Positions 18,372 to 47,358 of a stretch of DNA of 64,000 nucleotides are shown piece by piece. The stretch covers positions 74,823 to 138,822 of the forward strand of contig NZ_ATYB01000007.1 in NCBI RefSeq assembly GCF_000427465.1. Direction: 5' to 3'. The stretch is from Sinorhizobium arboris LMG 14919 (GTDB taxonomy: Bacteria; Pseudomonadota; Alphaproteobacteria; Rhizobiales; Rhizobiaceae). Below the pieces are notes generated by a model. The model searched no databases. It was not told where the DNA came from and was given only the letters and a program-made list of their open reading frames with translations. The stretch's first letter is position 1. Every line of letters begins with the position of its first letter. The position numbers and the translations under genes are program-made.

Positions 18372-18569
18372 TCCGTGCGAGCGTCAAAGCCGGCCTTACG
18401 CGGCTCCGGGGTTCACTGATCGGGCGGAGCGTTTAGGTTGGCGCCGCACCGAACGCCGTCGAATGAAGCAGACCGGCAGTCACATGCGAATGTCATGTTA
18501 TATTTCACACGAGTTAGCAGCACGACCTTTTCACATCATGTGTTTATGTGGCCACTGCGAAATGCTTTC

Positions 18570-18681
18570 TCATCGTGTGGAAAATTGTTCCCATCATTCA
18601 GGCATGGTTTAGTTGATTCGATTGACTACACGGTGCGGTGGTGCAATGGTTCCTCATCGTATGAGCAATTGTTCGCATCGT
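18570..18681 (+). repeat. Two iteron-like 28-bp direct repeats upstream of parA
   Basis: Positions 18570-18597 and 18654-18681 share TCATCGT[G/A]TG, AATTGTTC and CATC[A/G]T at the same spacing (about 22 of 28 identical), 84 bases apart, i.e. eight helical turns. A weaker related CACATCATGTG lies at about 18534. The area is AT-rich against its surroundings. Likely a centromere or operator for the ParA and partner pair, or replication iterons. Confidence 0.5.
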
Positions 18682-18731
18682 GTGCACGTGCGAAGTGGAA
18701 CCTCCGTCCAAGTACACGGCGAACTGCCCGA

Positions 18732-19478
18732 ATGACTTTCGGCCATCAGAGGGAGTTGCGACGCTTGCCACTTTTTATTTCTGCCGTGAGCGGCAAGGGT
18801 GGGGCTGGGAAGACAACAGCGGTAATCTTGATCGGCGGGGAGTATGCGCTTCAGGGAAAGCGCGTGCTTCTCATCGACGCAGACGGCCGCCAAAATCTGC
18901 AGGAATGGTGGAAGCGCTGTGACGCAAAGGACAACCTTCCGGACAATATCGAGCTTATAACCGCTGCCCGTCAGACGACCATTCAGCAGCTCCTGGAAAA
19001 CGAGGCGAGCAAGTTCGATGTCGTTTTGATGGACTCCCCCGGGCAAGACACGGTTCTAAGAGACACGATCATCGCTGGATCCGATATTGTGCTCACGCCG
19101 ATCCAGCCGAACCAGGACGAGATCAAGGCTGCGGGACAGGCCGCGGCCGCCACAGCCGATATTTCCGACAAGGTAGGACGGGAAATTCCTCACGCCAACT
19201 TCGTCACTAGGATCACCATGCCGGCGAAACTGCTGGAAGCCTATCGCCTGATCAGGCCGTTCGTGCAGAACCTGCAGGAAGGGGGCTACGACTCCTATCT
19301 GCTCCAAACGGAGCTTATGGAGCGAAATTGCTACCGCGAAATTCGAAACGGCTATGGCACCGTGCAAATGCTCGATCTCACACAGTCGGTGAAAAAAGCG
19401 AGGGCGGAAGTTATGAGCTTGGTTCGGGACATCGAAGCGCTTTTGGCAGGCAAGAAAGAGGTAGCAGCGAATGGCTAA
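18732..19478 (+). CDS. parA: ParA/MinD-family partition ATPase
   Basis: A 248-residue small ParA (type Ib-like, no N-terminal HTH). The deviant Walker A is SGKGGAGKTT near residue 20, Walker B region VVLMDSPGQD, and LLIDADGRQNLQEW is the A' motif. The ATG at 18732 is the best start, although the frame is open further upstream into the repeat region. The next gene overlaps by 8 nt and is the probable DNA-binding partner. Together with the repeats upstream it makes a partition locus separate from repAB. Confidence 0.85.
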   Translation: MTFGHQRELRRLPLFISAVSGKGGAGKTTAVILIGGEYALQGKRVLLIDADGRQNLQEWWKRCDAKDNLPDNIELITAARQTTIQQLLENEASKFDVVLMDSPGQDTVLRDTIIAGSDIVLTPIQPNQDEIKAAGQAAAATADISDKVGREIPHANFVTRITMPAKLLEAYRLIRPFVQNLQEGGYDSYLLQTELMERNCYREIRNGYGTVQMLDLTQSVKKARAEVMSLVRDIEALLAGKKEVAANG

Positions 19479-22728: not shown

Positions 22729-23553
22729 CTATGGTTCCGAGGCAGTATCGTGAGCAGGGCCGGCCTCGATGTATTCAGTGCCTACGCGCTCGAGTCTTGC
22801 TCCATCTCTATCAAGATTCCAGCGGCGGTCGGCGTAAAACTCAATGGCCTTGCGCATTTCGACTACGAGCATGTCGCCGTCAAACGCGTATTCACGACGG
22901 ACAGCGGCAGCTTGCTCCTCTGAAAGGTTGCGGTGGGGGCGCAGAGTGATGCGGGCGATTGTGTGCCAGTCGCGGTCAAACGGCAGTTTCTCTTCCAGCG
23001 GCCTTGTCATGAGGCTGCTTCCAGGCGCAATCCGTTCGGGAACATAGTCGCGGTATTCGCCATGCTTGAAGCTATAGGCGCGCACATGAATGCGCGAGCC
23101 ATCGGAGGCAAAGCGCGTCGGCGCGATCCATTGGGGCGTCTGATCGCCGGATGTCATGGATATGTATTGTACTTCGACGGCCTGCCGGCTTTCGATTGCC
23201 CGGCTTAGCAGAGCGAGGATCGCCGGATCGCTCCGCCGGGTCAGCGAGGGAAGCTCGTCGAAGCGATCAGAGTCGCTTGCCCGCAGCACTCGCTCCCATT
23301 CCCCCAATGAGGATTCGGGGGCGATGGGACGATGCTTCTCCTGCGCAATATAGACCTTTTTGGCGGCGTCGTAGCGCGGCGCGCCCTCTCGGGCCTCGGT
23401 TAGATAGGCCTTGAAGTCCAGAGCCGCCTGCGCCGTCGAAACCCCGAAACGATCCATCAGGTCGCGACGGTTTGCCGTGCCGCGCCAGGTGAAGCACTGA
23501 TCCAGAAAGACCAGCCGCTCGCGCTGCGGATGCTTGAGAGATTCCAGGCTCAT
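22729..23553 (-). CDS. WYL-domain transcriptional regulator, BrxR/CapW-like
   Basis: A 274-residue regulator with the layout of BrxR and CapW: an N-terminal winged helix (about residues 10-60, ANRRDLMDRFGVSTAQAALD), a WYL domain (about 125-195, VEVQYISMTSGDQTPQWIAP) and a C-terminal WCX-like extension. BrxR/CapW proteins repress defence operons and are thought to sense an infection-linked ligand through WYL. Here it is divergent from sbcD across 73 AT-rich bases, so it most likely controls the SbcD-SbcC-SNF2-Hsp70 operon. It is 24 kb from the BREX promoter; control of BREX as well is possible but not shown. Confidence 0.87.
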   Translation of the reverse strand: MSLESLKHPQRERLVFLDQCFTWRGTANRRDLMDRFGVSTAQAALDFKAYLTEAREGAPRYDAAKKVYIAQEKHRPIAPESSLGEWERVLRASDSDRFDELPSLTRRSDPAILALLSRAIESRQAVEVQYISMTSGDQTPQWIAPTRFASDGSRIHVRAYSFKHGEYRDYVPERIAPGSSLMTRPLEEKLPFDRDWHTIARITLRPHRNLSEEQAAAVRREYAFDGDMLVVEMRKAIEFYADRRWNLDRDGARLERVGTEYIEAGPAHDTASEP

Positions 23554-23626
23554 AACAAAGGGCTTGACTCCGATCGAGATATACGTCTAGTTTTTATACA
23601 TATATTTTTTAGATGGATCAATAGTC
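23554..23626. promoter_or_regulatory. Divergent promoter/operator between WYL regulator and sbcD
   Basis: A sharply AT-rich intergenic region. TTGACT at 23564-23569 is a candidate -35 for sbcD; TGTATAAA on the minus strand (about 23593-23600) is a candidate -10 for the regulator. CGTCTA (23584-23589) and TAGATG (23610-23615) form an imperfect inverted repeat, the form expected of a WYL regulator site. All inferred. Confidence 0.45.
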
Positions 23627-24775
23627 ATGAAAATTTTACACACAGGGGACTGGCATCTGGGGCGTCAGTTTTATGGGCAATCGCTCGAAGTCGACCATGA
23701 CTCCATCCTGGATCAGGTGCTGGGGGCGGTAAGGACGTGTTCGCCCGATGTGCTGGTTATCGCAGGGGACATATTCGATCGCGCCTCGCCGCCCGCCACA
23801 GCGGTTCGCCAGTTCAATAGCTTCATCCGGACGGTTCACGCCGATTGCGAAACTTCGATTGTCCTGATCGCCGGCAACCACGATTCCGGTGACAGAATCG
23901 CTTCCTACGCCTCCCTTGCCGATCCGAAGCGACTGCTGATACGCGGCCCTCTTTCGCCCGAGGAGCGCCCCTTGATCCTCGAAGATGAATACGGGCCTGT
24001 CGCGTTTTCGGGTCTACCGTTCGGCAATGAGTTCTCGGCGCGGGAGTGCTACGGGAACGGCTCAATTTCATGTCCCGCCGACGTTGTCTCCGCGCAGGTG
24101 GCATGCGCCCGCGCTCATGTGCCGGGCAATGCCCGCTGGGTTATCGCGGCCCACGTCTTTGTCGCCAACGCGACCCCAAGCGAGAGCGAGCGCTCGCTGC
24201 AAATTGGCGGCATCGAGACCGTCCCATCCAGCGTCTTCGACGGCGCGCACTATGTCGCGCTGGGCCATCTGCACCGGCCGCAGAGCGCCGGCGGCGAACA
24301 TATCCGGTATAGTGGCTCGCCGCTGGCTTTCGGCTTTGATGAAGCAGGTAGCAGCAAGTCGCTTACCATGGTCGATCTTGCCGCCGATGGGTCGGTGACC
24401 CTTCAGCAACTGCCGATCAATCCGCCGCGAGCCGTTCGCGTCCTGAAAGGGGAGTTCGCGGAACTCCTGGACATTGGCAGCCGCGAGCCGTCGGAGGATT
24501 TCATCAAGCTCGTGCTGACCGACAAGAAGCTCCTCATCGACCCGATGGGCAGGATCAGGGAGCACTATCCCAACGCGCTTGCGCTCACCTACGAGCGTGA
24601 CGAGAGCGCGGAACCGATTTTATTGCGCGGCAGCTCCCAGGCCAGGCTCGACGATCCGGTCGCCGTGGTCGGCGAGTTTCTGAGCCAGGTGCGCGGCGAA
24701 GACGGGACGGATGACGAAATGGCGTTGGTAAGCTCCGCACTGGAGCAACTGAATAGCGTGGAGGAGCGGGCATGA
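23627..24775 (+). CDS. sbcD: SbcD-type exonuclease subunit (Mre11 family)
   Basis: A 382-residue nuclease subunit of an SbcCD/Mre11-Rad50 complex that cuts DNA ends and hairpins. Metallophosphoesterase motifs are all present: DWHLG near residue 8, GDIFD near 49, GNHDSGDR near 86, AHVF near 182 and LGHLH near 213. The SbcD capping domain follows. The stop overlaps the sbcC start as ATGA. Chromosomal SbcCD is a housekeeping enzyme; this copy sits in a regulated defence operon, which suggests a dedicated nuclease. Confidence 0.94.
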   Translation: MKILHTGDWHLGRQFYGQSLEVDHDSILDQVLGAVRTCSPDVLVIAGDIFDRASPPATAVRQFNSFIRTVHADCETSIVLIAGNHDSGDRIASYASLADPKRLLIRGPLSPEERPLILEDEYGPVAFSGLPFGNEFSARECYGNGSISCPADVVSAQVACARAHVPGNARWVIAAHVFVANATPSESERSLQIGGIETVPSSVFDGAHYVALGHLHRPQSAGGEHIRYSGSPLAFGFDEAGSSKSLTMVDLAADGSVTLQQLPINPPRAVRVLKGEFAELLDIGSREPSEDFIKLVLTDKKLLIDPMGRIREHYPNALALTYERDESAEPILLRGSSQARLDDPVAVVGEFLSQVRGEDGTDDEMALVSSALEQLNSVEERA

Positions 24776-27700
24776 GACCGATACGGCTTACACTTCGGGC
24801 CTTCGGCCCTTACGCGGGCGAGCAGGTTGTCGATTTCAGGGACGCCCTCGGCGCCGGCCTCTTCGGCATCTATGGCCCGACCGGATCGGGGAAGTCATCG
24901 ATATTCAGCGCGATTTCGTTCGCATTGTTCGGTGAGCCCGCCCGGGACGACCAGGATGCATCGACTTTGAGGTCGGATCACGCGGATCCCAATTGCCTCA
25001 CGGAAGTCGAGCTCATCTTCGAGCTCGGCGCCACGAAGTATCTCGTGCGGCGCAGGCCGGAACAGATGCGGCCAGCCCAGCGCGGCGGCAAGGAGACAAG
25101 GGAGGCGCATTGCGCCTGGCTTTTCGATGTCACCGGCATCCCCCTTGATGAAATCACTTCCGAAAACCAAGGCATCCCGATCGTGGAGAAGAAAGTCTCC
25201 GAAGTGCGTGAAGAGCTTGAGCGAAGGCTTGGTTACGGGAAGGAGCAGTTCCGCCAGATCGTGCTTCTGCCCCAGGGACGATTTGAGAAGTTTCTGGCGG
25301 CGAATACCAACGACCGCCTCGCGATTCTTCGCGACCTTTTCGATGTATCGCTCTACAAGCGGCTGACCCAGAAAATGAAGGACGAGGCGAAGGCCGCCGA
25401 GGAAAAGATCAGGGCCGACCGCCGGGCCTGCGAAAGCAGGCTGGAGCAGGAAGGTTTCGCGACGCTCGAAGACCTTTCGGCGGGTGCGCAGCAGGCGCAG
25501 GAGGAGCAGAAAATCGAGGCTGCTGCGGCGGAGGCGGCAAAGAGCAATGCGGCGCTGGCCGAGCAGAAATTAGCGGCAGCTCATGAAGTAGAGAAGGCCT
25601 TTGCCGAGAACGAAGCAGCGGCGCAAGCGCTGGCATCGATGGAGGCCAAAAGCAAGGAAATCGAAAAGGACAAGACTGTCCTCGGCGGGGCGCTCGTGGC
25701 CAGGAGTTTGAGCGATGTCGATGCCGTCATGCAGCGCGCGCGCACCGATCTGTCCGCAGCAAGCGCGACATGCACGAAGGCGCAGGCCGCGCGCACGGCG
25801 GCAGAAGACGCCTTGGGGAAAGCGGCCGCAGCGCTGGCGGCGGAACAGGCAAAACGCGGCGAGTCCGAAACCATGCGGGAGCAAGGCGCGGCCCTGAAGC
25901 GTCATCGCGAGACGCTGAGTCACGCTGACAAGAAGAAGACAGCGAAGGAGGAAGCAGCGGCTATCGAGCGCGACGCGGCAGCGGCCTTCGAAATCGCGCA
26001 GAATAACCATAGCGCGCTGGTTCGCGAACAAGCCGACACAGCAGCGCGGATCAAGACGGCGGAAACGGTGGCCGGGCAGCGGGCGACCCTGTCGGCTGCG
26101 GCCCAGGAGCTGAAATCAAAGCTCGACGCGGCGCTCAATTACGATCGAGCGCTCAAGGCGGTCAACGATGCGCGGGGTCACGTTGCCGACGCGCGCGAGG
26201 ATCACGAGAAGAATTGCCGGGCGCAGGAAGCTGCGCAGCGCAACTTTGACGAGGCAGAGGCGGCGCTCGCGGGAGCGCAGGCGCAGCATCTTGCCGAAAA
26301 GCTACGGCCTGGAGAGGCATGTCCTGTCTGCGGTTCGCATGAACACCCTGCGCCTGCCCACGGCCAAGCGGAAAGTGCGGGGCGCGACGATGCTTTTACG
26401 GCGGCCCGCAAGGCGCTTGATGGCGCCCGCAATGCAAGCGCTGCCAGTGGCCAGACCCTTGCGGCGAAAGAGGCGACGCTTTCGGAACGACAGTCTCATC
26501 TTGCGGCACTGGTGAAGCCGGAAAACACTGTCGCCGAACTTCAGGAGCACAGCGCCAAGGTTCACAACGATATTGAAACTCTCGGCCCTGCGATCGATCT
26601 CGAAGCATTGCGTGGCGCATTGGAGAGGGTCGAAGGCAGGTTGCCGGAAGCGGGCGCAGCCGTAGAGAGCGCGCGCACAAGCCGCGATCAGGCAATAACA
26701 GGGCATGCCCTCGCCGCCCAGGCGCTGGAGGATGTCCTCGCGTCAGTTCCCGAAAACCTCAGGACGACGGATGCGCTTGAGGCCGCGATTACCGCTGCCG
26801 ATGAAGAGATCAGGAAGCGCGATCTTGCTTTTGAGCAGGCGGTCAAGTCCGAGCGCGACGCCAGTGAGATGCAGATCGCCGCGCTCAAGGACGAGCAAAG
26901 CGCGGCGAATGCCCGCGACGCTGCGCTCGCCAAGCTGCAAGAGGCGGAAGAGAGTTTCGGCGGCCGCCTGGCCGCGAACGGGCTCACCCAGGAGCAATAC
27001 GAAGCCCACAAGGCAAATATCGACCGCATTGAGGAGTTGCAGGCTTCTATCGAGCGCTTTGGACAAGATCTCCATGCCGCTCGCGACAGGGCCGCCCGTG
27101 CCGGCACCAATGTCGAAGGAAAGGATCGTCCTGATGTTGCCGGGCTTAGCGCCGCAGCCGAAGAAGCTACGCAGGTCAGGGATGGGGCCTTTCGGCGGGA
27201 AGCTTCCGCAGTTGCTCGCGCGGAATCTCTGGTAAAGCTTGCCGAAAGCATTGCCGGTGCATTGAGTGGCATCAAGAAGGCCGAGGACGCCTATGCACCG
27301 CTCGCGGCGGTCGCCCATGCGTTCAGCGGCAAGAACAACGCGAACATGGAGCTGGAGGCTTTCGCGATCGCCGCCATGTTCGATCTTGTGCTCGCTTCGG
27401 CAAACGCAAGGTTCAAACCGATGAGTGGGGGCCGGTACAGCCTGGAGCGCGAACGTGACGTTTCCAAGGGCGCCGGCAAGAAGGGCCTCGATATGGTGGT
27501 GCATGACGTGCATACCGGGCGTACTCGCGCAACCGCGACCCTTTCGGGGGGCGAGACGTTTATGGCGGCGCTGGCACTGGCCCTTGGCCTCTCCGACGTG
27601 GTGGAGAGCGTGAACGGGGGCGTTCATCTCGATACGATCTTTATCGACGAGGGTTTCGGAACGCTCGATACGGAGACGCTGGATCAGGCGCTTCAGACCC

Positions 27701-27834
27701 TTCAGGACGTTGTCGGCGAGAGCCGGGCCGTCGGGCTCATCTCGCACGTTGATCTTGTCCAGCAGGCAATTCCGTTAGGATTCCAGATCAGCAAGACGAC
27801 GGGCGGCAGCCATATCAGCCAACGTCTTTCGTAG
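24772..27834 (+). CDS. sbcC: SbcC-type SMC-like ATPase (Rad50 family)
   Basis: A 1020-residue partner of SbcD. Walker A GPTGSGKSSIFSAISF (about 35-50), Q-loop region VLLPQGRFEKFL, a long coiled coil (about 200-860) broken by the zinc hook CPVCGSHEH near residue 517, then the ABC signature TLSGGETFMAAL and Walker B TIFIDEGFGTLD near the C-terminus. All functional elements are intact. It is co-translated with sbcD (4-nt overlap). The SNF2 gene follows after about 160 bases. Confidence 0.94.
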   Translation: MRPIRLTLRAFGPYAGEQVVDFRDALGAGLFGIYGPTGSGKSSIFSAISFALFGEPARDDQDASTLRSDHADPNCLTEVELIFELGATKYLVRRRPEQMRPAQRGGKETREAHCAWLFDVTGIPLDEITSENQGIPIVEKKVSEVREELERRLGYGKEQFRQIVLLPQGRFEKFLAANTNDRLAILRDLFDVSLYKRLTQKMKDEAKAAEEKIRADRRACESRLEQEGFATLEDLSAGAQQAQEEQKIEAAAAEAAKSNAALAEQKLAAAHEVEKAFAENEAAAQALASMEAKSKEIEKDKTVLGGALVARSLSDVDAVMQRARTDLSAASATCTKAQAARTAAEDALGKAAAALAAEQAKRGESETMREQGAALKRHRETLSHADKKKTAKEEAAAIERDAAAAFEIAQNNHSALVREQADTAARIKTAETVAGQRATLSAAAQELKSKLDAALNYDRALKAVNDARGHVADAREDHEKNCRAQEAAQRNFDEAEAALAGAQAQHLAEKLRPGEACPVCGSHEHPAPAHGQAESAGRDDAFTAARKALDGARNASAASGQTLAAKEATLSERQSHLAALVKPENTVAELQEHSAKVHNDIETLGPAIDLEALRGALERVEGRLPEAGAAVESARTSRDQAITGHALAAQALEDVLASVPENLRTTDALEAAITAADEEIRKRDLAFEQAVKSERDASEMQIAALKDEQSAANARDAALAKLQEAEESFGGRLAANGLTQEQYEAHKANIDRIEELQASIERFGQDLHAARDRAARAGTNVEGKDRPDVAGLSAAAEEATQVRDGAFRREASAVARAESLVKLAESIAGALSGIKKAEDAYAPLAAVAHAFSGKNNANMELEAFAIAAMFDLVLASANARFKPMSGGRYSLERERDVSKGAGKKGLDMVVHDVHTGRTRATATLSGGETFMAALALALGLSDVVESVNGGVHLDTIFIDEGFGTLDTETLDQALQTLQDVVGESRAVGLISHVDLVQQAIPLGFQISKTTGGSHISQRLS

Positions 27835-27998
27835 CTAAACAAGGGGTTGCGATAAAATGATCGCGGGCTAACATCGTCGGGCCTGGGCGAGGGATTTTAT
27901 AAGTCGAAGCTGAAATATAAATGAGTAGAAATGTGGAAATGCCCACATGGATATTGTAGTTACTTTAGTGGTTCGTGAAATACTGTGCGGGGGGCACT

Positions 27999-30900
27999 AT
28001 GACGGGCGCAATACAGGAAGAAGAGCCGGCCGGCTGGAACCCGGAAGCGAGCGGAACGCGCGTTCGGCTCCGCGATAATCCGGGCAGGCAGGGAACGACG
28101 ACCGGAAGGGTCAAGAAGGCAGGCACTTTCCTGTTGGTCGAAGTGGATTTCGGCCCGAACGAAAAGCAATACAAGCGCTACGAGCTGCTGGAGCCCATCG
28201 CGGAGGAGGTGCAGATTTTTGATCTGCTTGAGGGCGGTTCATTCGGCGGTCCCAGCGACCTCAGGCGGGTTTTGACCTTTGAGAAGATCAAAGGTGAATT
28301 GACCAACGTCTTCTATTCGATGGAAGCCAGCAACACGGACTTCTATCCGCACCAGTTCAAACCGGTCATGCGGTTTATCGAATCCCCGATCGGCCGGATG
28401 CTGATCGCCGACGAAGTCGGTCTCGGGAAAACCATTGAAGCAACGTATATCTGGAAGGAAATCCAGGCCCGTCATTCAGCCAGGCGGCTGTTGATCATCT
28501 GTCCTGCCATGTTGCGCGAGAAGTGGCGCGAGGATCTGCGCAAGCGTTTCAACATAACCGGCGAAATCGTTTCCGCGAGCACGCTTTATGAACGGGTCAA
28601 GGACATCGCCAGCTACAGGAGCGCGGAGTCTTTTGTCTACATCACCAGCCTGGAAGGATTGCGTCCCCCCGCGAATTACGACGATGAGAATGTCGGCGGC
28701 GTCAGGGCGCAATTCGCCCGCATACTCGACCAGAATACGGCCAGTGAGGAGTTTGCCCTCTTCGACCACGTCGTCATCGACGAGGCCCACTATCTCAGGA
28801 ACCCCTCGACCGCCAACAACCGGCTTGCCCGCCTCCTAAGAGAGGCATCGCATCACCTTGTGCTGCTGACCGCAACGCCGATCCAGATTGGCAGCGACAA
28901 TCTTTACCAGCTTTTGCGCCTAATCGACCCCGATCAGTTCTACGATTCATTCCTCTTTGGGGAAATGCTTTCAGCGAACTCCTGCATAGTGCGCGCGCAA
29001 AGGGCGTTATGGCAGCAGCCGGCCGATATTCCCGCAGCGCTGAAGGCGATTTCCGAGGCGGAGAAGTCCGACTATTTCAAGAATGACGCCGTCCTTGCCC
29101 GCATCAAGGAACATCTTCGCGATGACGCCACCGATGCCGAAAGGCGCGTAGAGATTCTCCGGCTTCTGGAATCGCGCTCGCTTCTTTCCCAATACATGAC
29201 CCGAAGCAGGAAGCGCGAAGTTCTGGAGCGGCGCGTCGAGCGGGCGCCTCAGGTTCTCAGCGTCAGGTTCAGTGCGGACGAAAAGCAGCTCTATGACCAT
29301 GTTACCAGCCGCTTGCGCGATGAAGCGGCGGGCAAAACCGGCGTGTCGCTATTTTCGCTCATCGCTCGTCAGAGACAGATGGCGAGTTCGATTGTCGGCG
29401 CGCTCGAAAGCTGGGGCGACAAGGGCCTTATTGAAGAGCTTCTGTGGGAAGACTTCGGGATTTCGCCGCAGCTCCGTTTAGAGCCGCAGGGCAATAAAGA
29501 TGGCGACGATGCTGTCGATGTCGCCCCGCCCGACATGGGCTTCAAGCACGAGCTTGGCGCGCTGGAAAAAGGCGATGAAAAATATCGCGCGCTCCAGCAG
29601 TTTCTTGCGAATGAGCTGAAACGGAATCCGCGCGAGAAATTCGTCATCTTTGCCTTCTATCGCGGCACCCTCAAATACCTCGCGCGCCGTTTGAAGGCCG
29701 ACGGGATCAATGCGGCGCTGATCATGGGGGATATGGGTAAAGACAAGGACGATCTGATCCGGGCCTTCGCCCGATCGGACGGGCCGTCAGTCCTGCTCTC
29801 TTCCGAAGTCGGAAGCGAGGGTATCGACCTTCAATTCTGCCGCTTTATCGTGAACTACGATCTTCCCTGGAATCCCATGAGGGTGGAGCAGCGGATCGGC
29901 CGTCTCGACCGATTGGGGCAAAAAGCGGAACGCATCTCGATCATCAATATGGTCGTCGAGAACACCATCGAAGACCGCATCCTGATGAGGCTGTATGATC
30001 GCATCAACGTGTTCCGCGAGAGCATCGGCGATCTCGAAGACATTCTCGGGGAAGTGACCGAGCAGCTGCTCGTCAACCTGCTCGATCCGACCCTGACGGA
30101 CGAGGAGCGCGAGCGAAAATCCGTTGAGGCGGAGCTGGCAATCTGCAACACGCAGCGGGAGCAGCAGCGCCTCGAGGAAGAGGCGGTCAACCTTGTCGGC
30201 TTTTCCGACTACATCCTCGACCATATCAGCGATAGCCGTGAAAAGGGCAGATGGCTCAGTGCAAGCGAGCTCCAGTCCCTCGTGGAGGATTTCTTCGCGC
30301 GCAATTTCCCCGGCACCAAATTCGAGGCCGTCACGGGCGCGGAGTATGCCTCGCGCATCACTCTTTCGGAGGAAGCGCGGCGCTCCCTGGGTTACTTCAT
30401 ATCGGAGGCGCGGCCATCGACGAGGACGCAGCTTCATCGAAGCGGCAGACCGCTCCTGTGCATTTTCGACCCGCGCCGCGTCGAGGAGGTTTCGAGCGAA
30501 GCGGAGTTCATCGAGCCAAGCCATCCCCTCATACAGTGGATACGCTTCAGCTACGAGGACGACCAACGCCAGCTCCATCGCGTCACCGCGATCAAAGTCC
30601 CGGCGCATGAGGCCTGCGTACCTCCAGGGGACTATGTATTCAGCGCCCACCGTTGGTCATTCAACGGCCTGAAATCCGATCAGTCGCTTGCCGTCAGGGT
30701 GAAGCCGCTGGGAAGCGACCGTACGTTGGGGGCCTCGGAGGCCGAGGCGCTGATTACCGCTGCCTCGCGCGTGGGTGAGAAGCTGCCGAACGCGGTCAAC
30801 GTGCTTCCGGACATCGAGATCATCTGCGAGGCCGCCGTGACATGCGAAGAAGCGCTGGGCGACGCCTTTTCGGAGCGCCTTTCCGATTTTGAGGCGGAGA

Positions 30901-31145
30901 ACACGGTGCGCTGCGATCAGCAGCGTACCAGCGCCGAAAAGCTCGCGAGCCGCCGCATCGAAGGCTTGAAGGCCCGCGTCGCCCGGTTTCGCGCGGAAGG
31001 GAATCTGCGCCCCGTTGCGATGACGGAAGGTCTCATCAGGAAAGAGGAGGAGCAGTTGAAGACCAAGCTTGATCGCGTTTTACGGCGGCAACAGGTCGAT
31101 CCGACCATGATCCCGCTTGCGGCTGGCGTGGTGAGGGTTGTCTGA
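27999..31145 (+). CDS. SNF2-family DEAD/DEAH helicase (RapA-like core), defence-associated
   Basis: A 1048-residue superfamily 2 ATPase. A small N-terminal beta domain precedes the core: Walker A in LIADEVGLGKTIEA (about 135-148), DEAH box VVIDEAHYLRNPS (about 258-270), motif III LLTATP, and the second RecA domain with SEVGSEGIDLQF and motif VI EQRIGRLDRLGQ (about 625-640). The C-terminal 380 residues are unknown. The ATG at 27999 behind a G-rich site is preferred over GTG 27975. Comparable SNF2 proteins occur in BREX type 3 (BrxHII), DISARM (DrmD) and Dpd systems; I cannot place it in one. It ends 1 nt before the Hsp70-like gene. Confidence 0.9.
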   Translation: MTGAIQEEEPAGWNPEASGTRVRLRDNPGRQGTTTGRVKKAGTFLLVEVDFGPNEKQYKRYELLEPIAEEVQIFDLLEGGSFGGPSDLRRVLTFEKIKGELTNVFYSMEASNTDFYPHQFKPVMRFIESPIGRMLIADEVGLGKTIEATYIWKEIQARHSARRLLIICPAMLREKWREDLRKRFNITGEIVSASTLYERVKDIASYRSAESFVYITSLEGLRPPANYDDENVGGVRAQFARILDQNTASEEFALFDHVVIDEAHYLRNPSTANNRLARLLREASHHLVLLTATPIQIGSDNLYQLLRLIDPDQFYDSFLFGEMLSANSCIVRAQRALWQQPADIPAALKAISEAEKSDYFKNDAVLARIKEHLRDDATDAERRVEILRLLESRSLLSQYMTRSRKREVLERRVERAPQVLSVRFSADEKQLYDHVTSRLRDEAAGKTGVSLFSLIARQRQMASSIVGALESWGDKGLIEELLWEDFGISPQLRLEPQGNKDGDDAVDVAPPDMGFKHELGALEKGDEKYRALQQFLANELKRNPREKFVIFAFYRGTLKYLARRLKADGINAALIMGDMGKDKDDLIRAFARSDGPSVLLSSEVGSEGIDLQFCRFIVNYDLPWNPMRVEQRIGRLDRLGQKAERISIINMVVENTIEDRILMRLYDRINVFRESIGDLEDILGEVTEQLLVNLLDPTLTDEERERKSVEAELAICNTQREQQRLEEEAVNLVGFSDYILDHISDSREKGRWLSASELQSLVEDFFARNFPGTKFEAVTGAEYASRITLSEEARRSLGYFISEARPSTRTQLHRSGRPLLCIFDPRRVEEVSSEAEFIEPSHPLIQWIRFSYEDDQRQLHRVTAIKVPAHEACVPPGDYVFSAHRWSFNGLKSDQSLAVRVKPLGSDRTLGASEAEALITAASRVGEKLPNAVNVLPDIEIICEAAVTCEEALGDAFSERLSDFEAENTVRCDQQRTSAEKLASRRIEGLKARVARFRAEGNLRPVAMTEGLIRKEEEQLKTKLDRVLRRQQVDPTMIPLAAGVVRVV

Positions 31146-31146
31146 C

Positions 31147-32772
31147 ATGGCAAGCTGGCGTGACAGGCTTAAATCACTTCGCGAACGCGTGTTTGGCAGG
31201 GCGGAAGTTCCGCCATCCTCTTCCGAACCGGATGAAGGCGCGGCATCAGATAACGAACAGCCCGGCAATACGGCGTCTCCCCCGCTTGCGCAGGTCCCGC
31301 CTGCCGCTGCGGAGAAGGCACCCGCAAGCCGGGCAAGAGCCCGTGCGGGCAAAGCTCCGGCAACCGTCAAGTCGCAAGACAAGCTGGCGGGGGTCGTATT
31401 GAATGACACTCCGCCACGGAGCGCGCCCAAAGCAACACCGCTTGCCATCAATCTCGGCATTGATTTTGGCACGAGCTTCACGAAAGTCTGCTTTCGCGAC
31501 CTCGGCAGTGAGGTATCGGGAACAGTTGCTGCCGGCAAGGCCGGCAAGGAAGCGCTTGTACCCTCCATTGTCGCAATCGGTTCCGATGGGCGGCTGTTCC
31601 TTGGCGACAGTGTTTCCGGCAAGCAACCCGCCGTCATCGTTCCTTACCTGAAGATGCGCCTTGCGGGCGAGCCGATCGGCGAACGCCTGCCAGAGTTCGA
31701 GGGGATCGACCTGAACAAGGCCGAATCCGTCAGGGCGCTTGCGGCGTGGTTTCTTGCGTCGGTGATCCAGCGTAGTCAGCAATGGCTTGCTGTCCATGAA
31801 GCCGACAGACTGAAGAATCGCGTTCCGGTCTGGTCGGCGAATGTGGGTGTCCCTGTCGAGCATTACGATTCACAAGCGCTTGCGACGTTTGAAGAAGTGC
31901 TTGGCGTCGCCTGGCTGTGGGTCAAAGACGACCAGGTGCCGAAGACGTTCCAGCAGGCGCTGTCTTCGTATGGGGTCACCCAGCCGCGCCTTGTGTCCGA
32001 GGTCACAGACTTTCATGCGGTGCCGGAAATTGCTGCGGCGGTGCAATCGTTCGTTATGTCCCGTGAAGCCGTGCCGGGCATTTATGTCTATTTCGACGTT
32101 GGCGGCGGCACGGTCGATGGCGTCGCGTTCAACTATTTGAATTTCCGGGGGGAACGCCGCATCAATTTCTATTCCGGCAAGGTCGAGCCCGTGGGTGTCT
32201 CCGCGATTGGAACGGCCCTTTCGAAAGGAACGTCCGCCGAAATTGACGCTGTGACATTGGAGGGACTGCTGAAGACCTGCGCGCCATCGGCCCTAGCCGA
32301 GTTCGTTCAAAGAATTCGCAGGCTCGTCGGTTATGTCATCATGACCGCGCGGCAGAAAGACGGCCGGAACTGGCAGGAAGACGCCTTCCAGAGTGCCGAC
32401 TATGAGAGAAAGTTCATCGGCAAGCTATCGACTTCCCGCATGCGCCCATTGGTGGTTTTCATGGGCGGCGGCGGCTCGAAATCCGAGTGGTACAAGAATT
32501 CGATCGAATCCACCTACAAGGCCTTCCAACACCACAACGCAGGCGTTCCACCGTATAAGCTGGTGGAGGTTCCCCGGCCCAAGGACTTCATCATGCCGAA
32601 AGGTAGCGCCGATGAGTTTACTCGCTTCGCAATAGGGTATGGTCTGTCTTTTCCCTTTGGCGAAGGGCCAGACATTGGACTCCCGAGCCAGTTCGGCGAC
32701 GCCGAGAAGCCACGTCAGTGGAGGGCTCCCGGCACGGTTGACTATGCGGATAGCAAAGACGTGTACTGCTGA
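31147..32772 (+). CDS. Hsp70/actin-fold ATPase without substrate-binding domain
   Basis: 541 residues. About 95 N-terminal residues are Ala/Pro-rich and basic. Then comes an Hsp70-like nucleotide-binding domain: phosphate-1 LGIDFGTSFTKVCFRD, phosphate-2 YVYFDVGGGTVDGVAFNY and adenosine motif VVFMGGGGSKSEWYKN. The sequence ends soon after the ATPase fold, so there is no classical peptide-binding domain. ATG 31147 is 1 nt after the SNF2 stop with GAGGG upstream. Likely works with the SNF2 helicase as a switch or assembly factor; this is inference from gene order. Confidence 0.85.
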   Translation: MASWRDRLKSLRERVFGRAEVPPSSSEPDEGAASDNEQPGNTASPPLAQVPPAAAEKAPASRARARAGKAPATVKSQDKLAGVVLNDTPPRSAPKATPLAINLGIDFGTSFTKVCFRDLGSEVSGTVAAGKAGKEALVPSIVAIGSDGRLFLGDSVSGKQPAVIVPYLKMRLAGEPIGERLPEFEGIDLNKAESVRALAAWFLASVIQRSQQWLAVHEADRLKNRVPVWSANVGVPVEHYDSQALATFEEVLGVAWLWVKDDQVPKTFQQALSSYGVTQPRLVSEVTDFHAVPEIAAAVQSFVMSREAVPGIYVYFDVGGGTVDGVAFNYLNFRGERRINFYSGKVEPVGVSAIGTALSKGTSAEIDAVTLEGLLKTCAPSALAEFVQRIRRLVGYVIMTARQKDGRNWQEDAFQSADYERKFIGKLSTSRMRPLVVFMGGGGSKSEWYKNSIESTYKAFQHHNAGVPPYKLVEVPRPKDFIMPKGSADEFTRFAIGYGLSFPFGEGPDIGLPSQFGDAEKPRQWRAPGTVDYADSKDVYC

Positions 32773-32800
32773 ACCGGAAGGCGGGGTTTGGGGAGTAGGG

Positions 32801-33076
32801 ATGACAGAATTGTTGCTGCCGTTTGAAGACCTGCGGATAGAGCTTCCCGACTACGTGAAAGAGGATGGGTCAGCAGCTTCTCAGCTCATTCTCGCGAAAG
32901 AGCCATGCATTCTTCCGGCGGAAGACCCTGAAGAGCGAGGGCAATGGCATTGGACAACGCACCGAATGTTTCAAGAAGCATCTGGTGTCGATTTTCGAAC
33001 AGATTGGCCAACCGGTTCCCCGATCGCTTCAAAGCTCTTGTTAGCCGCTCTAAGGGATGCCGAACCACGCCGCTGA
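32801..33076 (+). CDS. Small ORF at the end of the SbcCD-SNF2-Hsp70 operon
   Basis: 91 residues, 28 nt after the Hsp70-like gene, with GGAG 5 nt before the ATG. The protein is acidic at the start (MTELLLPFEDLRIELPDYVK) with an aromatic centre (GQWHWTTHRMF). No family recognised. It overlaps a possible minus-strand gene for 190 bases, so at most one may be real; the ribosome site and operon spacing favour this one. Confidence 0.48.
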   Translation: MTELLLPFEDLRIELPDYVKEDGSAASQLILAKEPCILPAEDPEERGQWHWTTHRMFQEASGVDFRTDWPTGSPIASKLLLAALRDAEPRR

Positions 33077-37931: not shown

Positions 37932-39866
37932 TCATTCTACGCCGCCTTTCTTCTTCCTCTTGCCATCCTCCGCCAATGAGGCGGGTTCATAGAGCTGTTC
38001 GCGGTCGTGCGCGATGGCGAGTGACTTGTCTGTCTTGCACTTCTCGCGCACGCGGTCCGGCCAATAGGCCATGGCGAGCTGGGCCCAGTCGTATTCCCCC
38101 TTCTCAAGCTTCGTCCACGTGTCCTTCAACACCTTCTGCCAGGGCTTGTGTTGGAACAACTGCCACAACGGCGCGGCAGTGATCTGGACGCCGTCGTCAT
38201 GGTTCGGACGATAGGTCGGCGCGATCTGCAGCAGGGTATCGCGCAACTCGATCAGTTCCAGCTCCAGGCTCTGCAGCCCTTCGAAGGCCTTCTCATCGTC
38301 TCGCGAGCGGGCCGCGCCTTTGTCGCGCAGAGCGGCGGCATCGCGCGCAACCTGCTTCAGGTTCGGTTCCACGAAGTCGTTGACGGCGGTGTAGAGCGTC
38401 TGGCTGGTCAGGCTCGGGTAATAGAGCCAAAGCGTGTAGCTGCCCGAGCTGGTCGACAGCGGCCAGTAAATCGGCGCTTTGCGGCGGCTCTTGCTATACT
38501 GCCTCAGGTGCAGCGGGAAAAAGTCGCGCTGCAGCCAGCGACGCACGTCGCCCGGCACCTCCGTATCGACTCGCGCAAGAAGTTCTTCGATCAGCCGGGC
38601 CAGATCATCAGGGTGACCCCGGTCGTCGACCAGGATGCCATTGTGGGCATGAAACGGCGCGGCGCCGTCAGGCAACATGCCCGGACTCTTGGCTGGTAGC
38701 GGATCGAACGGGTCCGGCTCGGGCGGGGCGTCGCGTTCACCCGTCGCCAGTCGCCAGTCGAAACGGCCAAATGCGACGCCAACAGCCCAGCTAAGTAGGC
38801 CGTCGGTTTGGTCAATCTCGGTAGCACCGTCACCGTCTTCGTTCTCGTCTGCGTCCTCACCGACGTCACTGACTTCTCCGACAGGTGAAGTGGATGGAGC
38901 CCTTGCTGCGACACGGTCAACCTCGCTGAATCCATAGAGCTCGAATGCGATCTCGTCGATCCCCACTTGTATCTCAGCCAGCTCGGCCTCAATGGACGGC
39001 AGGTCATAGCTCCCAACTCGTACGCGCAGCGCGGCCGGCAAATGGAACGCATGAGAGTTCTCCTCTGTGGTATCCAAGGCGCGCTTGAGCGCCCAAGCAC
39101 GACGCGCCAACTGCACCAGCTGTTGTCTGCGATCGTCGTCGGGAGCTGGAAGTGGTGTTGTCTGAATTACTCCAACTTCGAACGAGTGAGCTGCGCCGCC
39201 GGGCCGCGCGTCAGCAGCGGCCAGCTGAACCTCGACAAGCTTGTGGAAAGCACTGCTCAGAGAAATTGCCAAAGCCCAGAACAGAACGTCTTCGTTATCA
39301 TTATAAGCAATTACTGCGGGGCCTTTGTCGCCGAATATGCAATTTCTCGGCATAACTCTCATTGACAAACGGCTCTTAGTTCTTCGTGACCAAGTCAGGC
39401 CTGGCCGGAAATAAAGACCCTTACTGGGTACTATTGCCGATTTATACGTCTTTGTAGTGACTCTCTCCGCCTCCAAATAGGCGCCGTCCTTGAGCCAATC
39501 TACAACAAGGTATACGTCTGCGTAATACGGCCGGAATTCGCCGCCCTTTGGGTGCACCATCCATCGACCAGTTTCCAATTTCACTTCGCACCAAGATCTT
39601 AGGAAGCGGAAATCATCATTGGAATTTACGCCTCGCCTTGGTAGAAATCCCGTTGCCGCACTCTCGAATGCTTCGTGCTTCTTGAAGGTGTTTCGCACCG
39701 AATCGCCTACCCAGTAGGCAAATGAAGCACCAGGGAAAGTTTTGAATGTTTCCGTATTTGCGGGAAATATTCGAGAGTCCTCAATTCCGTTCCGAAAGCT
39801 TCCCACGATTTCATCGAGAGCGTAGTGTTTATCTGTTGCTTCTAGAACACGAAGAAATACTGTCAT
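37932..39866 (-). CDS. pglX: PglX C-terminal half (BREX methyltransferase, target recognition part)
   Basis: 644 residues that match the region following the methyltransferase domain of full-length PglX: FLRVLEATDKHYALDEIVGS, then AYWVGDSVRNTF and a long C-terminal part ending in a basic tail (KRKKKGG). No SAM-binding motif. Its ATG shares a base with the stop of the upstream half (TAATG), so ribosomes can re-initiate. Together the halves total 1272 residues, the usual size of one PglX. It probably carries DNA recognition and pairs with the N-terminal half. Confidence 0.86.
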   Translation of the reverse strand: MTVFLRVLEATDKHYALDEIVGSFRNGIEDSRIFPANTETFKTFPGASFAYWVGDSVRNTFKKHEAFESAATGFLPRRGVNSNDDFRFLRSWCEVKLETGRWMVHPKGGEFRPYYADVYLVVDWLKDGAYLEAERVTTKTYKSAIVPSKGLYFRPGLTWSRRTKSRLSMRVMPRNCIFGDKGPAVIAYNDNEDVLFWALAISLSSAFHKLVEVQLAAADARPGGAAHSFEVGVIQTTPLPAPDDDRRQQLVQLARRAWALKRALDTTEENSHAFHLPAALRVRVGSYDLPSIEAELAEIQVGIDEIAFELYGFSEVDRVAARAPSTSPVGEVSDVGEDADENEDGDGATEIDQTDGLLSWAVGVAFGRFDWRLATGERDAPPEPDPFDPLPAKSPGMLPDGAAPFHAHNGILVDDRGHPDDLARLIEELLARVDTEVPGDVRRWLQRDFFPLHLRQYSKSRRKAPIYWPLSTSSGSYTLWLYYPSLTSQTLYTAVNDFVEPNLKQVARDAAALRDKGAARSRDDEKAFEGLQSLELELIELRDTLLQIAPTYRPNHDDGVQITAAPLWQLFQHKPWQKVLKDTWTKLEKGEYDWAQLAMAYWPDRVREKCKTDKSLAIAHDREQLYEPASLAEDGKRKKKGGVE

Positions 39867-41752
39867 TATCTCTTCTCCAGTGCGTACGCAGCTGCTTCTA
39901 CTAACGCATCATCCATGACGCCCAAGCCCAAGTCTGCCATAACCTCTGGCTTGGCGACGCCGAGAACTATGTCTTCCCGCCAAGCGGCGAAGCTCTTCAA
40001 AAAGAAACAGGTGCGTGATGTTATGGCGCCTAGGCGGCTGCCAGCGCGCATCATCTCCAAACCGCGCTCGACAAAAATTGCAAGCAAGTCGTTCTTGCTT
40101 GAAGGATAAGTCTTGATCAGCTCTTCTTTGGTGTTGGCCGCCAGAGCGCCGAAAGGCGGATTCATCACGACTACATCGAACACTTCCCGACAATGGTCGA
40201 TCATCCGCAGCCCTTGCAGAGCGTCGTCGGCAAACAGCCGTCCCTGATATGTGGATCGCGCCGCGCGGGCAAAATCCGTAAGCGCTCCGCGCAGCCGCGC
40301 CTCGGCCTTCTGCCACTGCTCCATATCTTCAGCGCGAAAGAGGGCACCATGCTCGCCAAAGACCTTGCGGATCAGCGCAGGCAGTTCCTTTTCGACCTTC
40401 AGCAACACACCAAGCTCGGGCAGGCCCTTGAGCATGAACAGCGTCTGCTCGAACAGCTCGGCATCTAGGGGGCCCAGTTCCTCCATGAAGCGCTTGCGCA
40501 GGTCCACCTCGGCCGGCGGGGCCACCGCCGCCACCACATGGCCCTGGCCCACCTGCGGCCGGTCCTTAGACTTCACGCCCGCCTCATGCCAAGCCCGCTG
40601 CGCCCGCAGCCACAGCGCCAGCGACGCGATCTGCGCCGCCCGCGGGTCGATATCGACGCCATAGATGTTGTGCTCGATGATCAGCCGCGGCACGTCGCGC
40701 AGCAAGGCATCCAGGTCGACATAGGTTTCCAATAGCGGCTTCAGATCAGGGCCGCCGCCGGTTTCCCGATCCAGCGCGGCGGGCCCATGGGTCTGCTCCC
40801 ACTCCCAGGTCTCGCGGTAGATTTCCTGGAACAGGTCGAAAGCGTAGAGGCCGAAATGCATCGAACCGCAGGCGGGGTCGAGAAGCTTGATCGTACGCGG
40901 GTCGCGCAGGCGTCTGGCAGACTCTGGCTGCTCATCCGGTTTCACCAGCAGATACTGGCAGCGGTCGCGCAGCGAGGTTTGCCCGCCCGTCCAGTTGAAC
41001 CAGAGCCGCCCCAGCGTATTGTCGACCAGGAATTCCACCACATAGCGCGGCGTGAAGAACTGGTTACGGACGGCGAGCTCTCGACTGTTGCGCGGCGCCT
41101 GGGACGCCTCGCGCATCGCTTTGCGCTCTTCCTTCGAGTTAAAGTACTGGTAGATCCAGCCAATCGTCTCGTCCTCAGCCCAAAGAGGGTCGATCTCCCC
41201 GTGATTAATCAGAGTCAGAAGTTGAACGAGCGCCACCTCGCGAGGGAACAGTCGCCCTTGCGGTGAATAGCGATCAAAGAGAGCTGGCAAATCCTGCGAT
41301 AGCTCGTCAAAGACGCTCAAGAGATACGTCCGATAAGCATCCCCGGTTTCGCCAAGGCCGGCGCCAGCTAGCCGGGAGTAAAGTTGAAAACCTTTGGCCT
41401 GGTAGCCGTTGCCGACAGACTCGATTAGCAGCCCGCGCGCTTCTGCCATACGTAGCGCCGCCAACCGGTTGAGGACGGTGAAGGCTTGTTCGCGCACGAT
41501 CCGGTCAAGGCCGGCAGTGGCATCCGTGCCGGGGCTTGCGCAATAGTGGGCAAGCGTATCGCGCAGGATGCGCGCCGTTTCCCGCTGCGCGTCGGTCAGG
41601 TGACGCAGGTTCTCTATCGGCGTGACTGTGCCGGACGCGGGATCAAGCCCGTAGTCGAGCTGCAGCTGGCGGGTGAACTCCTCCTCTAGCGTTTTGCGCG
41701 CCTCATTCACAAATCGCTGCAAGCGATTTCGCGTCGCCTGATCGAAAGCCAT
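39866..41752 (-). CDS. pglX: PglX N-terminal half (BREX adenine-specific DNA methyltransferase)
   Basis: 628 residues holding the complete N6-adenine methyltransferase: SAM-binding motif I LLDPACGSMHFGLYAF (about 287-302) and catalytic NPPF in VVMNPPFGALAAN (about 527). It stops right after DALVEAAAYALEKR, where a full-length PglX would run on into the second gene. It begins 2 nt after the brxC stop. BREX uses this enzyme to mark self DNA. The split is at a clean stop-start and there is no homopolymer at the junction. Confidence 0.9.
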   Translation of the reverse strand: MAFDQATRNRLQRFVNEARKTLEEEFTRQLQLDYGLDPASGTVTPIENLRHLTDAQRETARILRDTLAHYCASPGTDATAGLDRIVREQAFTVLNRLAALRMAEARGLLIESVGNGYQAKGFQLYSRLAGAGLGETGDAYRTYLLSVFDELSQDLPALFDRYSPQGRLFPREVALVQLLTLINHGEIDPLWAEDETIGWIYQYFNSKEERKAMREASQAPRNSRELAVRNQFFTPRYVVEFLVDNTLGRLWFNWTGGQTSLRDRCQYLLVKPDEQPESARRLRDPRTIKLLDPACGSMHFGLYAFDLFQEIYRETWEWEQTHGPAALDRETGGGPDLKPLLETYVDLDALLRDVPRLIIEHNIYGVDIDPRAAQIASLALWLRAQRAWHEAGVKSKDRPQVGQGHVVAAVAPPAEVDLRKRFMEELGPLDAELFEQTLFMLKGLPELGVLLKVEKELPALIRKVFGEHGALFRAEDMEQWQKAEARLRGALTDFARAARSTYQGRLFADDALQGLRMIDHCREVFDVVVMNPPFGALAANTKEELIKTYPSSKNDLLAIFVERGLEMMRAGSRLGAITSRTCFFLKSFAAWREDIVLGVAKPEVMADLGLGVMDDALVEAAAYALEKR

Positions 41753-46748: not shown

Positions 46749-47252
46749 TTACGCTCGCGTCAAATAGGGAAAGGCCTTGATCCCCCGCTCGTAGGCGGAC
46801 GCATAAATGCCAGCCATTTGCACAATGACATTTGACGTGCGCACCGCGTCGATGCTCCCTAGAGAAACGGGGCCATCTGCGACGGTTTTGGATGGGCCGC
46901 CTATCGCGCGGAGCATATCTAGTGCAACGTCTTTGTTTTGTATGAATTCATCTTGGGTCGTTCGACCCTCATCTCCAGCTAGAGCCGTGTGCAGATCATC
47001 TTCTAGCTCTTCTGGCAGCCGAAATATGTGATAGGAGCCGACACTTAGGCTCTCGTCATGCACGAGCCGGGCCGCTTCAGCCACGCCGTGATATTTGGCA
47101 ACATGGCTGGTGCGCGGGAAGACGGGTTCGAGAAACGCCTGACTTGCCGGTTGGTAGAACGAGGTTTTCCACCATCCAAACTGATTGATCTCACCGAGAT
47201 AGCCGACAAGAAGTCGGACTTTCAGCAGATCATTCAACGGGTCGTTTGGCAC
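46749..47252 (-). CDS. brxE: BREX protein BrxE
   Basis: 167 residues. The GTG at 47252 is chosen because AAGGAG lies 6 nt upstream; an ATG at 47276 has no such site. It begins VPNDPLNDLLKVRLLVGYLG and contains INQFGWWKTSFYQPASQAFL, the pattern of the BrxE family, known mainly from type 6 BREX. First gene of the operon. Function unknown in the literature I know. Confidence 0.82.
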   Translation of the reverse strand: MPNDPLNDLLKVRLLVGYLGEINQFGWWKTSFYQPASQAFLEPVFPRTSHVAKYHGVAEAARLVHDESLSVGSYHIFRLPEELEDDLHTALAGDEGRTTQDEFIQNKDVALDMLRAIGGPSKTVADGPVSLGSIDAVRTSNVIVQMAGIYASAYERGIKAFPYLTRA

Positions 47253-47358
47253 TGTAATCTCCTTACCAGCACGCATGCCGAGCTTTGTAAGGGAAGCGCA
47301 GGTCTCTCAATCGATCATCGACTTTGTTCGCCTTCATCGCGCGCCCCCCTTACCACTC

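Follow-up and report, generated by a model that had tools for sequence, protein, structure and literature searches.

A 64,000-nucleotide stretch of the Sinorhizobium arboris LMG 14919 genome (contig NZ_ATYB01000007.1; hereafter the window, whose numbering is used for all coordinates given without a locus name) raises the question of whether a row of genes next to a type 1 bacteriophage exclusion (BREX) operon is one defence system or several. A preliminary description had listed genes for a WYL regulator, SbcD, SbcC, an SNF2 translocase, an Hsp70-like protein and a small open reading frame (ORF), and had read them as one tight operon whose four or five genes act jointly. We confirm this gene content and order at 22729-33076 and arrive at a different partition: the row probably consists of two separately mobile modules lying side by side in a defence island, WYL-SbcCD (module A) and SNF2-Hsp70 (module B). 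The gene composition of the modules is well supported, and their borders, co-conservation, predicted folds and motifs are described below as observed. Judged from sequence, a role of both modules in defence is likely. Profile catalogues would call the locus a lone DrmD with loose genes, hiding the two constant gene sets inside. SNF2-Hsp70 is the more unusual of the two modules, and its SNF2 motor comes from a family that several defence systems already employ.

Two modules with separate borders and distributions

The module border lies in the 164-nt gap between SbcC and SNF2, because nucleotide homology with loci L006 and L007, which show no SbcCD in their available 10-kb flanks, begins at 27860 and stops at 32780. 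The pair therefore has its own leader (27860-27998, + strand) and ends at the Hsp70 stop, and a single tight operon is not borne out. Homology with two further loci covers 27989-32759 (L008) and 27989-32777 (L047), and these borders imply that the two genes move together, accompanied in one lineage by a leader of their own. The leader is common to L006 and L007, not to L008 and L047, and contains an inverted repeat (ATGTGG-6-CCACAT) with conserved arms around a differing loop. A promoter and terminator scan found no excess over shuffled sequence, so it is solely conservation that points to a putative function of the repeat. The spacings noted earlier (4 nt, about 160, 1 and 28 nt) are correct: SbcD and SbcC overlap by 4 nt, SNF2 and Hsp70 are 1 nt apart, the small ORF follows after 28 nt, and the gap behind SbcC measures 140 nt to a GTG at 27975, which is also open, or 164 nt to the ATG at 27999. 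The latter is the likelier start, since homology with L008 and L047 begins at 27989 and the upstream G-rich stretch is shared. The small ORF (32801-33076) lies past the homology block of module B, and a protein search found only the ORF itself; it can no longer be counted as a member.

The Hsp70-like gene was surveyed in 84,980 species genomes, seeded with two peptide patterns and thus missing members without them, and 37 loci were recovered. In 34 of these, an SNF2 sequence of the same clade adjoins it on the same strand, with SNF2 first in 22 pairs and Hsp70 first in 12, all of them cyanobacterial. Measured to the earliest possible start, the gap does not exceed 30 nt in 25 of the 34 loci, and the largest is 520 nt. 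Among the unpaired loci, the contig of L020 starts shortly upstream, and L041 is a 54-residue match that we take as spurious. In the reverse direction, SNF2 (E 1e-80) occurs in 2/397 genomes of the order, the same two that carry Hsp70, one being the window's own; the pair is thus patchy (2/397 and 3/398 genomes, own genome in both counts). On plasmids, all six SNF2 records (E 1e-60) fall among the seven Hsp70 records. The two genes are nearly inseparable, even though their order varies. A phage origin of the pair was considered and rejected, as a scan of viral contigs gave seven pattern matches and zero relatives.

WYL-SbcCD has a distribution of its own. A survey of 72,556 plasmid records yielded 59 SbcD matches at E 1e-50, and all 37 with at least 47% identity have a window-type WYL gene (40-56% identity) in divergent orientation 70-93 bp away. 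SbcC (E 1e-60) is present on 35 of these 37 records, and 16 of the 35 SbcC plasmids are typed conjugative. The 60 WYL records listed (455 further ones exist) include none of the remaining 22 SbcD plasmids (<40% identity). Two WYL plasmid records listed without an SbcD match are from Rhizobium leguminosarum; in the one inspected, a short sbcD annotation adjoins the WYL gene. Transfer genes, transposases, integrase or restriction genes lie near all six plasmid WYL-SbcCD loci opened, four of them on conjugative plasmids. Across the class, SbcD (E 1e-90) was found in 5/384 genomes besides the window's, with a divergent WYL gene in four of the five, L077 being one of these four.

Could the five genes nevertheless form a single system, in which a WYL-controlled SbcCD nuclease degrades phage DNA from its ends and SNF2-Hsp70 acts as its DNA-feeding motor and switch? 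The Mycoplana locus L005 speaks for it, with the same gene order, high identities (WYL 86%, SbcD 93%, SbcC 84%, SNF2 97%, Hsp70 85%) and an unbroken nucleotide match at 89% over 22763-32779. Within the available DNA, however, WYL-SbcCD lies beside the pair in 1/34 pair loci; relatives with 95-97% SNF2 identity comprise loci both with and without SbcCD, and in the closest others (L006, L007, L008 and L047, 95-96%) none is seen in the flanks. Trees do not group the window and L005 apart from other close loci (the protein tree being weakly supported), and none of the 37 WYL-SbcD plasmid records is among the plasmid SNF2 or Hsp70 matches. These co-conservation counts (1/34 for the full set, 34/37 for the pair, 37/37 for WYL-SbcD) led us to reject the single system as the principal explanation, and we rate it improbable as an alternative. 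The joint function that had been read from gene spacing is unsupported for the full set, which is not co-conserved in this sample (several contigs end soon after the pair), while each half is strongly co-conserved.

The SNF2-Hsp70 pair

The translocase (27999-31145, + strand, 1048 aa) matches the PADLOC DrmD model PDLC02623 end to end with 975 bits, which the preliminary description had missed, although its assignment of the protein to the SNF2 kind found in DISARM and BREX was right. Cross-matches in PADLOC were HmaA (174 bits) and a DrmA model (147 bits). The predicted structure aligns with RapA over residues 69-1048, with a RapA-type domain order, and the motor motifs are invariant or nearly so across the 20 complete sequences chosen. 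No recognised nuclease was found in the protein. SNF2 genes are truncated at contig ends in L017 and L030 and broken internally in L027, L029 and L039.

Given the DrmD match, we considered whether the locus is a remnant of DISARM (defence island system associated with restriction-modification). The corresponding NCBIfam model, DISARM_DrmD, gives 441.6 bits, below its cut-off of 610, and in a scan of 15 window proteins against individual PADLOC profiles rather than system rules, no protein had its best match in DrmA, DrmB or DrmC, the constant partner being Hsp70 instead. With the core genes not found in this set, DISARM membership is rejected and a remnant is very improbable. By the same profiles, no complete known system is made up of these genes, as had been supposed.

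The partner (31147-32772, + strand, 541 aa) had been described as an Hsp70/actin-fold ATPase in a defence-island context, and the predicted model agrees, with a DnaK-type nucleotide-binding domain (NBD) fold and both phosphate loops. A poorly ordered N-terminal stretch precedes the predicted NBD (about residues 99-517), and a conserved DSKD tail follows. The protein has no substrate-binding domain: the aligned NBD stops near residue 517 of 541, and the predicted local distance difference test (pLDDT) score drops from 69 to 36 past residue 510. It has no match in Pfam (E 0.001; PF00012 included), NCBIfam or PADLOC, and a PF00012 search of the genome found DnaK and one other place (in two pieces), not this gene. 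When the family profile was compared with the genome's DnaK, the first phosphate loop alone was recovered, at low probability, and we claim no residue-by-residue catalytic match. The closest records by Hsp70 gene come from Mycoplana, Sinorhizobium, Mesorhizobium, Rhizobium, a Rhizobiales and Shinella. In the cyanobacterial loci the Hsp70 gene is for the most part longer (628-1069 aa; split in L031), and the four proteins tested gave only weak coiled-coil-like Pfam matches.

Selected neighbours of the pair include a variety of defence genes. In L009 (Mesorhizobium), HmaB and HmaC family genes lie directly upstream and a RecD-like PDC-S68 gene downstream, and L010 and L011 have the same gene clusters. 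L006 and its near-copy L007 also encode a DEAD-UvrD double-helicase protein and an HKD+Snf2-family protein. Other neighbours are a DrmMI/type IIG-like methylase (L037), an Eco57I-type methylase with a ResIII-domain (helicase-type) protein (L021), a PLD protein (L051) and a GajB-like helicase (L026). On plasmids, McrBC, a RecB-like nuclease and Hachiman are near the Aminobacter pair, and cas2 lies about 7 kb from the pair in Leptolyngbya.

Two neighbour arrangements deserve separate mention. The RecD-like PDC-S68 protein is encoded directly behind the pair in five loci (L009:11820-15638, L006:11680-15447, L007, L010 and L011; PADLOC match run for two, the rest assigned by cluster). In L032:2-6126, the genes preceding the pair encode SspH and a class V aminotransferase that may be the cysteine desulfurase of the phosphorothioate system.

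The WYL-SbcCD module

The regulator gene (22729-23553, - strand) encodes a protein scoring 29.5 bits against PF13280 (cut-off 21.8). Its similarity to CapW and BrxR, proposed earlier, is confirmed by a full-length match to a solved CapW (9c5g, query residues 10-251, E 2.5e-29) and a match to solved BrxR (E 6.9e-17). A 73-bp divergent gap (23554-23626) separates it from SbcD and contains TTGAC, as does this gap in 12/12 loci compared, the window and L005 among them; from its position and the conserved motif, the gap may hold promoter and operator.

SbcD (23627-24775, + strand, 382 aa), an Mre11-type nuclease, scores 161 bits against TIGR00619 (cut-off 77.65), and its sequence shows phosphoesterase motifs. 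SbcC (24772-27834, + strand, 1020 aa), a Rad50-type ATPase, is matched over its full length but under the cut-offs of NF041751 (363 bits; 920) and TIGR00618 (256 bits; 478.5). Its AAA_23 and SbcC_Walker_B domains are above the Pfam cut-offs, and Walker A, a CPVC hook, LSGG and Walker B are all present, giving both ABC ATPase halves and the zinc hook. Family scores and motifs thus bear out the end-processing nuclease and SMC-like ATPase of the preliminary description as an accessory SbcCD, a predicted end and hairpin nuclease with complete catalytic motifs.

Complete catalytic motifs would also suit an ordinary repair enzyme that the host acquired to make good a lack of its own, as would the absence of another SbcC match from its 6.85-Mb genome. 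Strong matches to SbcC, at E 1e-33 or better, occur however in just 4/101 genomes of the family, which we take to be Rhizobiaceae or close to it; none is above the curated cut-off, and the other 97 genomes show no strong match. Some match at E 0.001 exists in 79/101 genomes; the best of those below the strong ones reaches 2.8e-10 and is partial, the others are likewise partial and no stronger, and we therefore take them for ABC-type background. The rarity of strong matches makes SbcCD look acquired here, and it is unlikely to be an ordinary housekeeping neighbour. As this nuclease also travels with a CapW/BrxR-type regulator on plasmids, nearly half of which (16/35) are conjugative, a repair function alone seems to us an unlikely explanation.

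The adjoining BREX operon

BREX type 1 genes start at 33196 on the opposite strand, in the order BrxL, PglZ, PglX (two halves), BrxC, BrxB and BrxA. The head-on placement pointed out earlier is therefore real in the window and not a fixed arrangement, as BrxA in the Mycoplana locus L005 shares the strand of the Hsp70 gene and follows it at a distance of about 9.5 kb. BrxC (E 1e-20, anywhere in the genome) was found in 5/19 genomes with Hsp70 loci, the genome of L009 left out, with identities of 94% in that of L005, 69/49% (two pieces) in that of L026 and 25-28% in three. One of 60 BrxC plasmids among the matches listed (206 further) is a WYL-SbcCD plasmid. With so few shared genomes and plasmids, the case for dependence on BREX, or for the modules as fixed BREX type 1 components, is weak.

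Within the operon, PglX consists of two abutting ORFs of 628 and 644 aa (37932-41752), one half of which scores 122 bits against a DrmMI model. The Mycoplana BREX is about 84% identical elsewhere but does not align with positions 39041-39872, which may be a swapped recognition region. A 175-aa ORF (46749-47276, - strand) with no Pfam match abuts BrxA, and similar-sized ORFs precede BrxA in L005 and L077. Upstream of the island, a 346-aa protein (18438-19478, + strand) has weak PADLOC matches to PDC-M28B and mad8.

Weighing the two-module reading

A number of observations weigh against two separately mobile defence modules. The pairing has an exception in L012, with a half-length Hsp70 and no SNF2 within 10 kb, and in L025 an SbcD-like gene, distant at 27%, lies on the opposite strand. 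Flanks are short for several pair contigs, so the absence of SbcCD is not established for all 34. Three SbcCD loci in the window's family have no WYL gene by the same test, and none was seen beside SbcCD on the 7.5-kb contig L081. Both modules occur together in two genomes, the window's and that of L005, each with a BREX operon close by, which leaves room for cooperation. In L035:3362-4798 and L036:8593-9966, SNF2 remnants that lack the motor core, with profile positions of about 1-95, some of 148-286, and 737-923 left, still lie directly upstream of the Hsp70 gene; this speaks for the pairing and also argues that translocation may not always be required. Some pairs have housekeeping neighbours (valyl-tRNA synthetase in L008, Obg in L013, aconitase in L014 and a histidyl-tRNA-synthetase-type gene in L028), and six of nine further neighbour proteins (eight of the nine cyanobacterial) had no PADLOC match at E 1e-8; the pair may therefore have a function outside defence.

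Such a role could be that of a RapA-like stress or transcription-recycling pair working on RNA polymerase, island-borne and not itself a defence. The RapA fold along the chain, the Hsp70 fold and the housekeeping neighbours fit this explanation; the narrow occurrence in the order (2/397 genomes), carriage on plasmids and recurrent defence neighbours do not, and NCBIfam RapA gives 193.5 bits (cut-off 576) against the 975 bits of PADLOC DrmD, the two models coming from different libraries. We regard it as rather unlikely, if somewhat less so than the single five-gene system, and retain the two mobile modules as the preferred reading.

A possible mode of action

Published accounts indicate that repression by CapW can lift upon phage infection (PMC9122588) and that PafBC, a WYL factor, is triggered by binding single-stranded DNA (PMC11804915). 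In module A, we infer that the CapW/BrxR-type repressor holds the shared divergent promoter until infection or damage to DNA supplies a ligand, probably a single-stranded nucleic acid, that frees it. SbcCD would then be made and cut replicating foreign DNA at its ends, hairpins and palindromes. SbcCD (Mre11-Rad50) is described as acting on DNA termini, and phage N15 as shielding its hairpin ends against this nuclease (PMC12624138), so invaders that are linear, end in hairpins or are rich in palindromes would be at risk from an inducible SbcCD. The module suggests that this hairpin and end nuclease has been turned into an inducible, plasmid-carried weapon or shield.

In module B, the RapA-like motor would bind and track DNA, possibly DNA bearing RNA polymerase, with the Hsp70 NBD as an ATP-dependent switch over loading or assembly, whose contact surfaces would probably be the N-terminal and C-terminal non-motor regions of SNF2. 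Because the pair has no recognised nuclease, it may strip or stall foreign replication or transcription complexes itself, or pass the DNA to an adjoining effector. The nearest candidate effectors for such a hand-over in the window's genome are SbcCD and BREX.

Comparison with known systems

The window's regulator shares its WYL family with CapW and BrxR, and in L077 a WYL gene precedes a BREX operon, from which a single 169-aa ORF separates it. In contrast to CapW and BrxR, the WYL gene in the window is tied to divergent SbcDC, and sbcC is unmentioned in the main texts of the WYL papers compared (sbcD was looked for in one). L077:9471-13085 combines both settings, with a single WYL gene that has SbcDC diverging on one side and a BREX operon running in its own direction on the other, and this regulator may control both.

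DrmD of DISARM, BrxHII and ArmA belong to the same RapA-like SNF2 family as the window's motor. For ArmA of ARMADA, a likeness to BrxHII and a RapA (Swi2/Snf2) domain are described (PMC12458937), and BrxHII has been paralleled with RapA (PMC12839542). Their difference from module B is its fixed partner, an Hsp70 NBD; the term hsp70 is absent from the main texts of both papers. RapA itself aligns with the SNF2 model, as described above, whereas the window protein is patchy, partly plasmid-borne, coupled to Hsp70 and below the RapA equivalog cut-off. In Hma and the DUF499-centred BREX-related systems, the likeness lies in L009, whose SNF2 gene occupies a possible HmaA place behind HmaB and HmaC. 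The extra Hsp70 gene and the lower HmaA score (174 against 975 bits for DrmD) set the pair apart, and among the matches listed there was no HmaB or HmaC for the 15 window proteins scanned. In DISARM, BREX type 3, ARMADA and Hma, the motor is hard to separate from other components; SNF2-Hsp70 offers a two-gene, testable unit for its RapA-like role.

Recruitment of an Hsp70-like protein into defence has a parallel in CnuD of CoCoNuT (PMC11090510), which, as far as that account goes, has NBD and substrate-binding units with McrB/McrC-type proteins, while the window protein is an NBD only, with SNF2. Among the matches listed for openly licensed PMC papers, titles and abstract openings contain no description of either the SNF2-Hsp70 pair or the WYL-SbcCD module, from which absence in print does not follow.

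Eukaryotic SWI/SNF and INO80 remodellers combine an SNF2 motor with actin/Arp subunits. A constant actin-superfamily ATPase partner of an SNF2 motor is common to them and module B, as an analogy only, with no HSA-type link shown. It is conceivable, and we put it forward tentatively, that SNF2-Hsp70 resembles these remodellers in having an obligate partner of this kind, and serves as a portable scanner for invader DNA beside or within many unrelated effectors (SbcCD, Hma, McrBC, Ssp, PLD and restriction-modification) and alone elsewhere.

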